Made by a program: the position numbers and the translations under genes | The notes under the pieces: generated by a model | The model's database searches: none | What the model saw: the letters and a program-made list of their open reading frames with translations, nothing else | What the model was told of the DNA's origin: nothing | Shown here: piece by piece, positions 23,663-26,653 of the stretch | Layout: each line of letters begins with the position of its first letter | Numbering within the stretch: position 1 is the first letter of the stretch | Source: Thermincola carboxydiphila | GTDB lineage: Bacteria; Bacillota; Thermincolia; Thermincolales; UBA2595 | Direction: 5' to 3' | DNA length: 64,000 nucleotides | Assembly (NCBI GenBank): GCA_016841725.1 | Contig: JAENYP010000002.1 | Span: forward strand, 1 to 64,000

Positions 23663-23827
23663 TTAGTCGGGTATGGCTGCATTTGAATCCGTATAAAGCT
23701 GTACAACTCTTTGTCCTGCCAGCAGCAGGGCACCGGCAGCAGCGACTGCCAGAAGTCCCAGCACCAGGCCGTACTCCGTCAATCCCTGGCCGTTGTTTTC
23801 GGTAACAAGTTTTGCCAATAACTTCAT
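23663..23827 (-). CDS. Flp/Fap-type (type IVb) pilin, small
   Basis: This 54-residue protein matches Flp pilins: a short cationic leader (MKLLAKLVTENNGQG), then LTEYGLVLGLLAVAAAGALLL with the invariant Glu-Tyr pair, and a short polar tail. The prepilin peptidase would cut before the hydrophobic stretch at the glycine. GGGTGGGAG precedes the ATG. Flp pilins form Tad pili for adhesion. No tad assembly genes are in the window, so this is an orphan pilin gene or it is exported by machinery elsewhere. It has its own terminator. Confidence 0.8.
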   Translation of the reverse strand: MKLLAKLVTENNGQGLTEYGLVLGLLAVAAAGALLLAGQRVVQLYTDSNAAIPD

Positions 23828-24489: not shown

Positions 24490-24768
24490 TCAAAAATCGT
24501 GGTGCGGCTCTTTTTGTACCTGAAGCAATGCCTTGGTAATCTCGGTAATCACCTTTATCCTGGTGTCCATGTAAGATGCCAAAAGTTTGGAAAATACTTC
24601 ACCCTTTTGAGATACATAATACTGTGGCGGGAGGTTGTTCAGCGCAATAGCCATTATATCCAAACGGCATTTCTCGCATTTACACAGTCCCTCCTTCTTG
24701 TCAAGGACTTCATCAAGTACTTCCCTGACGACTTTCTCCGTGTAGTTATGAAGTTCCAGAATAGCCAC
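24490..24768 (-). CDS. ComFB-family protein
   Basis: The 92-residue protein (GTG start) matches the late-competence ComFB domain: LHNYTEKVVREVLDEVLDKKEGLCKCEKCRLDIMAIALNNLPPQYYVS. The cysteines CxCxxC and the LPPxYV string are conserved in the family. Related cyanobacterial proteins bind cyclic di-nucleotides. I favour the GTG at 24768, which has GGAAGGGG just upstream and matches family length. An ATG at 24846 gives 118 residues but lacks a ribosome site. A sigma-H-like promoter lies at 24870-24896, consistent with competence or stationary-phase control. Confidence 0.8.
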   Translation of the reverse strand: MAILELHNYTEKVVREVLDEVLDKKEGLCKCEKCRLDIMAIALNNLPPQYYVSQKGEVFSKLLASYMDTRIKVITEITKALLQVQKEPHHDF

Positions 24769-24869
24769 ACCCCTTCCGGCCCAGAGTCTGTTTCGGATGA
24801 AAAATATTTCACAACCAAAGAAATTCCTGGGCTCAGTTTCTGGCATTAAATTTAATTATTCAGTTAATT

Positions 24870-24971: not shown

Positions 24972-25385
24972 CTAATTCCCTTCAATAACATTGTTAGATT
25001 GCCCTGTATGCTCCAAATGCCATTGGGAGAATTCCCCGATGTCTTTTCTGATTGAATTGAAAACAAATGATATTACGGTCACATCATCAACAAATCCTAA
25101 CCCAAGTAGGAAATCAGGAATCATATCAACCGGGTTTAAAAAATAAAGAAGCGCTGCCAGACCTGTGATTATTGTTTTTAAGGGGACTCTTCTATACTCT
25201 CCCCTTGCCCATGCTCCCACCATTTTTATTAACAAATCCATTTCATCACGGACTTTATCAATTTTCCCCTTTTGTTTTTCATACTTGATCAAAGCCCTGT
25301 TAATAATTTCTGTGGTCCTTTTTATGTCTCCAGCAAGGTTTGCCGCCTTACGCCTGCTCGATTCGAAACCCGCAGGTTTTTTCAA
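24972..25385 (-). CDS. YkvA-like membrane protein (DUF1232)
   Basis: The 137-residue protein has a charged N-terminal half and the DUF1232/YkvA core around VPLKTIITGLAALLYFLNPVDMIPDFLLGLGFVDDVTVI (about 67-106), with the hallmark N-P-x-D-x-I-P-D motif. One or two membrane helices pack around it. The function of the family is unknown. AAGGAGAAGG precedes the TTG start. It is preceded by two terminators and the candidate small RNA, so it has its own promoter or depends on read-through. Confidence 0.85.
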   Translation of the reverse strand: MKKPAGFESSRRKAANLAGDIKRTTEIINRALIKYEKQKGKIDKVRDEMDLLIKMVGAWARGEYRRVPLKTIITGLAALLYFLNPVDMIPDFLLGLGFVDDVTVISFVFNSIRKDIGEFSQWHLEHTGQSNNVIEGN

Positions 25386-25440: not shown

Positions 25441-25487
25441 TTAAAAAGGCGCGCATCTTTCAGTTCCCAATTCGCGCGCCTTTTTAT
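25441..25487. terminator. Bidirectional GC-rich terminator
   Basis: GGCGCGC (25448-25454) and GCGCGCC (25474-25480) form a seven-base stem flanked by five A and five T, so it could act both ways. Confidence 0.75.
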
Positions 25488-25540: not shown

Positions 25541-25571
25541 TAAAAAAAAGCCTCAAGCTGACGCTTAAGGC
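25541..25571 (-). terminator. Terminator of the candidate small RNA / ddl operon
   Basis: GCCTTAAGC and GCTTGAGGC form a nine-base stem with one mismatch and a four-base loop. On the minus strand eight T follow. It is the 3' end of the candidate RNA at 25543-25640. Confidence 0.85.
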
Positions 25572-25640
25572 AAACACCTTAAATATATAAGGTGAAGGCG
25601 GGCTCTTTGGTAAAAGTAACCAGTATTTACTACGTGATTT
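25543..25640 (-). ncRNA. Candidate small RNA with C-rich anti-SD-like loop
   Basis: A sigma-H-like promoter (25646-25672) is followed by about 98 bases with no reading frame and then a strong terminator. The predicted RNA has a small hairpin (TGGT/ACCA, near 25609-25622), an exposed C-rich stretch GAGCCCGCCTT (about 25595-25605), a hairpin CACCTTA/TAAGGTG (25575-25594) and the terminator stem. C-rich single strands of this kind in Gram-positive small RNAs pair with ribosome sites. The pyrimidine-rich segment recalls CsfG, a small RNA of endospore formers; I could not check that. It lies between ddl and the YkvA-like gene. Confidence 0.6.
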
Positions 25641-25645
25641 TATTA

Positions 25646-25672
25646 ATTCTACAATAATCTCTAAATTCCTGC
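25646..25672 (-). promoter_or_regulatory. Sigma-H-like promoter of the candidate small RNA
   Basis: GCAGGA (25672-25667), then ATTT, and GAAT (25649-25646) are separated by exactly 17 bases, the same layout as the comFB and queE sites. Confidence 0.55.
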
Positions 25673-25717: not shown

Positions 25718-26653
25718 TTAAGCATTATGGGCCTGGAAGGCATAGTTAATCAGTCTTTCAATCAGGTCGGGAAAGTTTATCCCGGCAGCTCTGGCAGCAT
25801 CAGGGAAAAGGCTTGTAGCAGTCATTCCAGGGCTTGTATTAATTTCCAGCACATAGGGTTCATTGTTTTCACTAACCAGGAAATCAACTCTGGACAATCC
25901 CGTGCATCCAACAGCACGGTAAGCCCTGGCAGCAATTCCCCTGATTTCCTTGTCAATTGCTTCTGGAAGCTCTGCCGCAAAATGACTGCTGGCTCCGGTC
26001 GTATACTTGGCATGGTAGTCATATACCCCGGACTGAGATACTATCTCCAGGATTGGGAGAACCACAGGCTCTGAATTACCCATGATAGATACCGTCAGTT
26101 CCCGGCCTTTAATAAACTGTTCCACCAGAATCTCATGATCATACTTCAGACACTCAACAATACCTTCTTTTACGTCCTCTTCCTGGAAGGCAAAGCAGAC
26201 ACCGATTGAGGAACCCTGACTGGCAGACTTTATCACAACAGGCAGTTTCATTTTATTCAAGACCATTTGTGAGATTTCCACAGGTGAGGACCGTTCCCCA
26301 TCAATTACCATAAATTCCGGTGTGGGGATATTTTCGTAAATAAATATTTTTTTGGTCATAATTTTGTTCATTGCCAGAGAACTGGCCATAACTCCCGGTC
26401 CTGTATAGGGTATGCCCAGAATTTCCAGAAGTCCCTGGACACAGCCGTCCTCACCGTATTTGCCATGAAGGGCAATAACTGCAACATCTGGCCCGACCTC
26501 CCGCAGTTTTTCACTGAGGTCCTTTCCGGCATCAATAAGCACAGTATCAAAGTCTTTGTCTTTTAAAGCATCAAATATGGACTTCCCGGTATTCAGGGAA
26601 ACTTCTCTCTCTGTTGACAGACCGCCATACAGGATAGCTACCTTTTTTGTCAT
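25718..26653 (-). CDS. ddl: D-alanine--D-alanine ligase
   Basis: The 311-residue ATP-grasp enzyme shows the Ddl pattern: AILYGGLSTEREVSLNTG at the start, ALHGKYGEDGCVQGLLEILGIPYTGPGVMASSLAMNK, KSASQGSSIGV for ATP binding, and YVLEINTSPGMTATSLFPDAA with the metal-binding glutamate and asparagine. It makes D-Ala-D-Ala for peptidoglycan stem peptides in the cytoplasm. The ATG overlaps the stop of the PHP gene (ATGA), so translation is coupled. The ESPGMT-like NTSPGMT segment and Tyr-rather-than-Phe choices suggest a normal D-Ala enzyme, but resistance-type ligases cannot be excluded from sequence alone. Confidence 0.93.
   Translation of the reverse strand: MTKKVAILYGGLSTEREVSLNTGKSIFDALKDKDFDTVLIDAGKDLSEKLREVGPDVAVIALHGKYGEDGCVQGLLEILGIPYTGPGVMASSLAMNKIMTKKIFIYENIPTPEFMVIDGERSSPVEISQMVLNKMKLPVVIKSASQGSSIGVCFAFQEEDVKEGIVECLKYDHEILVEQFIKGRELTVSIMGNSEPVVLPILEIVSQSGVYDYHAKYTTGASSHFAAELPEAIDKEIRGIAARAYRAVGCTGLSRVDFLVSENNEPYVLEINTSPGMTATSLFPDAARAAGINFPDLIERLINYAFQAHNA

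Follow-up and report, generated by a model that had tools for sequence, protein, structure and literature searches.

An intergenic RNA locus next to ddl

The window is a 64,000-nt stretch of the Thermincola carboxydiphila genome (contig JAENYP010000002.1). The locus lies on its minus strand, between the D-alanine-D-alanine ligase gene ddl and a DUF1232 gene (Table 1). Read on this strand, GCAGGA (25672-25667) is followed by 17 bases, GAAT (25649-25646) and about 98 nt up to the end of a T8 tract at 25542. The original prediction of about 98 non-coding bases ahead of a strong terminator was confirmed (25639-25542, with a 9-bp stem and T8). In the alignment of seven loci no conserved reading frame was seen, and indels between relatives fall in the leader and the loop. 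A non-coding, intergenic unit with its own promoter and Rho-independent terminator has the make-up of a trans-acting small RNA (sRNA), and the locus is a candidate of this class.

Table 1. Features of the RNA locus and its flanking genes, in window coordinates
Feature	Position	Strand	Basis
Sigma-H-like promoter, GCAGGAATT - 11 nt - GTAGAATTA	25644-25672	minus	Direct reading and orthologue pattern
Predicted small RNA, about 98 nt	25542-25639	minus	Start inferred 7 nt past the -10 element; fold and orthologue set
Invariant pairing segment (core) GCCCGCCTTCACCTT, 15 nt	25589-25603	minus	Same in 7/7 genomes
Conserved hairpin CACCTTA / TAAGGTG, A/T loop	25575-25594	minus	Same 7 pairs in each of the 7 sequences
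Intrinsic terminator, 9-bp stem and T8	25542-25571	minus	Direct reading; stem 25571-25550
ddl, D-alanine-D-alanine ligase, directly upstream of the RNA	25718-26653	minus	Pfam PF07478/PF01820
DUF1232 gene, downstream of the RNA, neighbourhood not conserved	24972-25385	minus	Family search and neighbour comparison

The 98-nt strand is predicted to fold at -28.4 kcal/mol, compared with -16.2 +/- 2.7 kcal/mol for shuffled sequences (z -4.6). Two inner hairpins had been proposed. The hairpin at 25594-25575 is robust and conserved, whereas the more 5' hairpin is weak and falls in the variable leader. The C-rich stretch had been described as exposed, which holds for most of its length. The unpaired probability along GCCCGCCTT ranges from 0.12 to 0.97 in the window's genome, the first bases being paired and the rest mostly unpaired. 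The CACCUUA half of the pairing segment is inside the stable hairpin.

No Rfam family matched the RNA, whether the window was scanned at the gathering score or the surroundings of the site with E values up to 10. Near-matches to RprA (E 1.4) and STnc40 (E 0.14) are under the gathering scores and were set aside as chance. Two other features were observed nearby. An inverted repeat AAAAAGGCGCGC...GCGCGCCTTTTT (25447-25485), in the interval that separates the RNA from the DUF1232 gene, resembles a bidirectional terminator. Further along the minus strand, a 54-aa ORF (23663-23827) resembles, by eye only, a Flp-type pilin.

Conservation across the order

BLAST against 61 genomes found the RNA in two genomes of the same genus, in three other genera of the same family, and in one genome from a different family within the order. 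With a covariance model made from the seven RNA loci, exactly one strong copy was obtained in each of the seven near-complete genomes of the order (E <= 8e-17). Among 398 genomes of the phylum, these seven were the only strong matches. In three less complete order genomes (61-75% complete) the RNA was not matched, though one of them, G008, has the rsmH site described below. Weak model matches outside the order (11 places in 9 of the 398 genomes, E 2e-4 to 0.01) seem to be ordinary terminators, the core being absent from all six places that were read. A pattern scan of contigs returned nine stretches. Four are members of the order, and the other five are without the hairpin-terminator arrangement and seem to be chance.

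The alignment of the seven loci separates into conserved modules, namely the promoter, the 15-nt core, the hairpin and the terminator. The core GCCCGCCTTCACCTT is identical in 7/7 genomes, and the original proposal had required such conservation of the C-rich stretch among relatives, while the loop and the terminator vary. The leader 5' of the core is 16-56 nt long depending on the genome, and the predicted RNA is 79-119 nt. All seven pairs of the hairpin next to the core are unchanged in the seven sequences, and its loop differs. In the terminator stem, two pairs are changed on one side with pairing kept. The gene directly before the RNA is ddl in six of the seven genomes and a PHP gene in G009; the genes after it differ among genomes. 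These observations argue for an independent RNA gene.

A sigma-H-type promoter

The sigma-H consensus used here is AGGAWWW-N11/12-RNNGAATWW. The strict pattern occurs at 91 sites in the 3.88-Mb genome of the window, compared with 9 for the reversed control. An excess over the reversed control is seen in the other nine order genomes too, which indicates that the pattern reflects a real promoter class. A promoter of the form GCAGGA-N17-GAAT had been predicted, and orthologues bear it out: the strict pattern is present at six of the seven RNA loci, and G009 is one base off, with GAAA for GAAT. In G005 the promoter was recovered by direct pattern search, since the MAFFT alignment misplaces it. The promoter-pattern excess and the single strong copy in 7/7 near-complete genomes mean that the RNA locus is not a chance pattern.

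The sigH gene (spore_sigH) was found above the cut-off in nine of the ten order genomes. With the promoter pattern and the sigma factor gene both present, the RNA can be placed in a putative sigma-H regulon. Downstream proteins were read by eye at 24 of 30 sampled sigma-H-like sites; a response regulator, a ZapA-like and an HU-like protein were among them. The window holds a second site of the strict pattern, AGGAATTTCAAAATATTTGCTGAATAA, at 24894-24868 (minus). It immediately precedes a ComFB gene (24490-24846, minus), and fewer than 800 bases separate it from the RNA.

Complementarity to the rsmH leader

In the genome of the window, the best complement of the core outside the RNA locus is AAGGTGAAGGCGGG, directly before an ATG. 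This ATG opens rsmH, a member of the MraW methylase family (E 1.7e-123). The same sequence immediately precedes the start codon of rsmH (mraW) in six of the eight order genomes with rsmH (G000-G004, G008), where 14 of the 15 core bases pair with the leader. The exact 14-mer has 14 sites in the ten order genomes, comprising the seven RNA loci, six rsmH leaders and one DUF2325 leader (G005), and no further exact site was found in them. The chance expectation, by arithmetic from genome sizes, is about 0.2 sites. The conserved segment thus has its complement in the ribosome site of an mRNA from a different locus, as had been predicted for the C-rich segment, and the 14-nt match makes rsmH its candidate target.

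Upstream of the pairing site the leader sequence varies, and the site itself is fixed in six genomes. The predicted pairing shrinks to 9 nt in G005 and 8 nt in G009. For comparison outside the order, 23 rsmH loci were collected, with 22 readable leaders (L180, near a contig end, was not counted). In these 22 leaders the longest run had 4-7 Watson-Crick pairs; allowing G-U raised this to no more than 9.

The seed duplex at rsmH is calculated at -29.4 to -29.5 kcal/mol in the six genomes, -14.1 in G005 and -12.0 in G009. Among 182 candidate starts in the window, none gave a seed duplex better than -23.1 kcal/mol. Cofolding of the whole RNA with a 100-nt leader was run for seven genomes. The gains were modest. 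In G000 the gain was -17.8, versus a shuffled-target mean of -8.4 and minimum of -16.4; in G001, G003, G004, G005 and G009, some of the 50 mono-shuffled targets were equal or better.

Part of the match is expected because AAGGUGAA is itself a Shine-Dalgarno sequence. We take the telling part to be GGCGGG, between the Shine-Dalgarno sequence and the ATG. Translation does not require these bases to be conserved, and they are conserved jointly with the RNA core. No co-varying change of RNA and target was seen; the two are conserved together. G005 and G009 keep the core intact although rsmH pairing there is weak, so rsmH cannot be the sole reason for its conservation. A strong target was not found in G009.

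The dcw operon and its promoter

The division and cell-wall (dcw) operon in the genome of the window runs mraZ, rsmH, an ftsL-like gene, a penicillin-binding protein gene, mur genes, mraY, ftsW-like and murG-like genes, to a murA-like gene. The first three were named by Pfam, with MraZ and MraW above the cut-off and DivIC/FtsL below it. The genes past these three we take to be as listed, from their N-terminal sequences. The ftsL start is 2 nt after rsmH.

A sigma-H-like site is present about 80-140 bases upstream of mraZ in all eight rsmH-bearing genomes (L134-L141). It is exact in G003, G004 and G008, and has one mismatch in G000, G001, G002 and G009 and two in G005. In the eight genomes it is followed by GTGG-type repeats at the operon head, which resemble MraZ boxes. 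Since sigma-H-like sites are found at both loci, one and the same sigma factor probably drives the dcw operon and the RNA predicted to mask its second gene.

Further candidate targets

The original prediction was that the RNA represses many genes. The counts do not bear this out: near-full complements with up to three mismatches are not in excess in the genome of the window (129 versus 125 in the control). With up to one mismatch and the RNA itself excluded, the ten genomes also gave no excess (28 versus 25). The core-complement search in the ten genomes returned 35 places, 31 of which were read in context.

A shorter pattern, GAAGGCGGG-N0-10-ATG, gave 77 matches versus 32 for the reversed control in the ten genomes, and 70 of the 77 loci were read. 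Many of the matches are inside genes, such as mraY and a leuS-like gene. Others precede start codons. GAAGGCGGG stands before a 65-aa Cys-containing protein (MYKCPLG...) in three genomes of the same genus (L203, L221, L202), and before a HypC-like protein in two genomes. The G000 copy of the 65-aa protein has no Pfam family. At the DUF2325 leader of G005 (L155 1208-1492), 16 bases including one G-U can pair with the RNA (TAAGGTGAAGGCGGGT), with a calculated seed duplex of -32.2 kcal/mol. DUF2325 is a possible second target in this genome. The small Cys-containing protein, the HypC-like protein and DUF2325 are all weak leads as candidate targets. Target prediction with the C-rich segment, which had been suggested at the outset, indicates a single main target, rsmH, and a small number of further candidates.

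Proposed circuit

We consider it likely that the locus encodes an order-specific, trans-acting sigma-H sRNA, which would pair with the rsmH ribosome site and put the dcw operon under an incoherent feed-forward loop. The promoter, terminator, conservation, complementarity and its position, and the presence of sigH and hfq are supported by the sequences, and from these we infer the following course. The sigma-H promoter would make the RNA at growth stop or at the start of sporulation. The C-rich segment GCCCGCCUUCACCUU would then form a 14-nt pairing with AAGGUGAAGGCGGG, a stretch reaching from the Shine-Dalgarno sequence up to the last base before the rsmH AUG. For this, the hairpin holding the CACCUUA half must open. 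Pairing in the cell is expected to block 30S binding and to lower the amount of RsmH, the 16S rRNA C1402 methyltransferase; ftsL, just behind rsmH, might drop together with it. Sigma-H would in this way turn on the dcw operon and hold back its second gene through the RNA. Hfq probably assists via the U-rich tail. The hfq gene is present in all ten order genomes and the RNA ends in T8, a combination consistent with an Hfq-dependent sRNA.

A more far-reaching version is that sigma-H transcribes murein and division genes for the needs of sporulation and at the same time silences rsmH through its own sRNA, so that new ribosomes lose C1402 methylation and translation is re-tuned at sporulation entry. 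We hold this version to be tentative, plausible but less likely than not.

Alternative explanations

The core could also act more broadly. By mimicking the 16S tail, it would pair with Shine-Dalgarno sequences and repress many mRNAs with AAGGUG(AA) or GGCGGG leaders, rsmH being merely the best match. Retention of the core in G005 and G009 despite the weak rsmH match fits such a role, as do the perfect site before DUF2325 in G005, the GAAGGCGGG sites before the small Cys-containing and HypC-like proteins, and the more than doubled count of GAAGGCGGG-N0-10-ATG over its control. The GAAGGCGGG excess, however, includes coding positions (mraY) and a general leader bias, and near-full complements are not enriched genome-wide. 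We take this explanation seriously without favouring it. Another explanation is that the element belongs to the 3' UTR of ddl, as a terminator or stabiliser freed from the transcript by processing and without a regulatory role. The RNA is always on the same strand, just downstream of ddl (six genomes) or the PHP gene (G009), and its terminator is the first same-strand terminator found after ddl. Its own sigma-H-like promoter in 7/7 genomes, an invariant core that termination does not need, and the complement at rsmH leave this improbable.

A cis-acting attenuator or riboswitch would account for a conserved structure with a terminator at its end. Such an element would be expected to keep its downstream gene, which is not constant among the genomes; the leader length varies and Rfam gave no match, so that the chance of this reading is very slight. 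The last candidate is a divergent form of the sporulation RNA CsfG, to which kinship had originally been suggested. The C-rich segment, the sporulation-type promoter and the presence of Hfq are in its favour. CsfG is antisense to the ylbH-leader motif, as far as the cited account describes it (PMC3574147). The corresponding model RF00516 (ylbH, the strand opposite to CsfG) returned no match for the window at the gathering score, for the surroundings of the site with E up to 10, or for the genome of the window at E <= 1. CsfG-like CTCTTCCTCCG..TTTCTCCTCTCCC is found on the reverse strand of several ylbH-model candidates in relatives (L021, L022, L024, L025, L027, L030), all below the gathering score. 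The core of the present RNA differs from this sequence, and in G005 a single contig carries both the present RNA and a CsfG-like locus. Identity with CsfG is therefore rejected, and we give even a divergent relationship next to no credence.

Relation to known small RNAs

FsrA, RsaE and other C-rich Gram-positive sRNAs pair with ribosome sites through a C-rich segment. The predicted pairing mode of the present RNA is like theirs, but the promoter type differs and Rfam gave no match here. In discoordinate operon control, sRNAs of the RyhB and Spot 42 type pair with a gene inside an operon. Pairing with an internal gene is likewise predicted here; the RNAs are unrelated, and in the present case a single sigma factor seems to serve both operon and RNA.

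To our knowledge, few sRNAs with convincing targets have been described in deep-branching Clostridia-like lineages, and none with targets was found in print for this order. A published account of the present RNA was not found by searches of the literature on Thermincola, on Desulfotomaculum/Clostridia sigma-H small RNAs, or on rsmH/mraZ/mraW sRNAs. We file it as a putative new sRNA family whose predicted circuit is unusual. The proposal is directly testable, since the sigma factor, the RNA, its target gene and the bases that pair are all predicted from sequence alone. If it is true, cell fate would be linked to ribosome modification through a sporulation-type sigma factor with two actions, starting the dcw operon and restraining rsmH. 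This suggests a new way for relatives of spore formers to tune ribosome modification and division at growth stop. A 2026 preprint reports that, in Bacillus subtilis, a sporulation checkpoint is bypassed when mraW (rsmH) is lost, through altered translation (PMC13317604).

CsfG is a sporulation-linked sRNA, as is predicted for the present RNA, and resembles it in having conserved pyrimidine-rich stretches; it is Hfq-associated in B. subtilis, in the cited accounts (PMC3574147, PMC9147052). The two differ in sequence. CsfG uses sigma-F/sigma-G in the forespore, whereas the promoter of the present RNA is of sigma-H type by sequence. CsfG is also without known targets in these accounts, and it occurs separately in relatives. 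By analogy, the nearest known system in role is StsR of Rhodobacter sphaeroides, a stationary-phase sRNA which is reported to bind the dcw 5' UTR and the UpsM sRNA (PMC8307010). The likeness is in role only: the present RNA, too, is predicted to be a stationary-phase, alternative-sigma-dependent sRNA acting on dcw operon expression through mRNA binding. StsR belongs to another phylum with other sigma factors, and the present RNA is predicted to bind within the operon, at the start region of rsmH.
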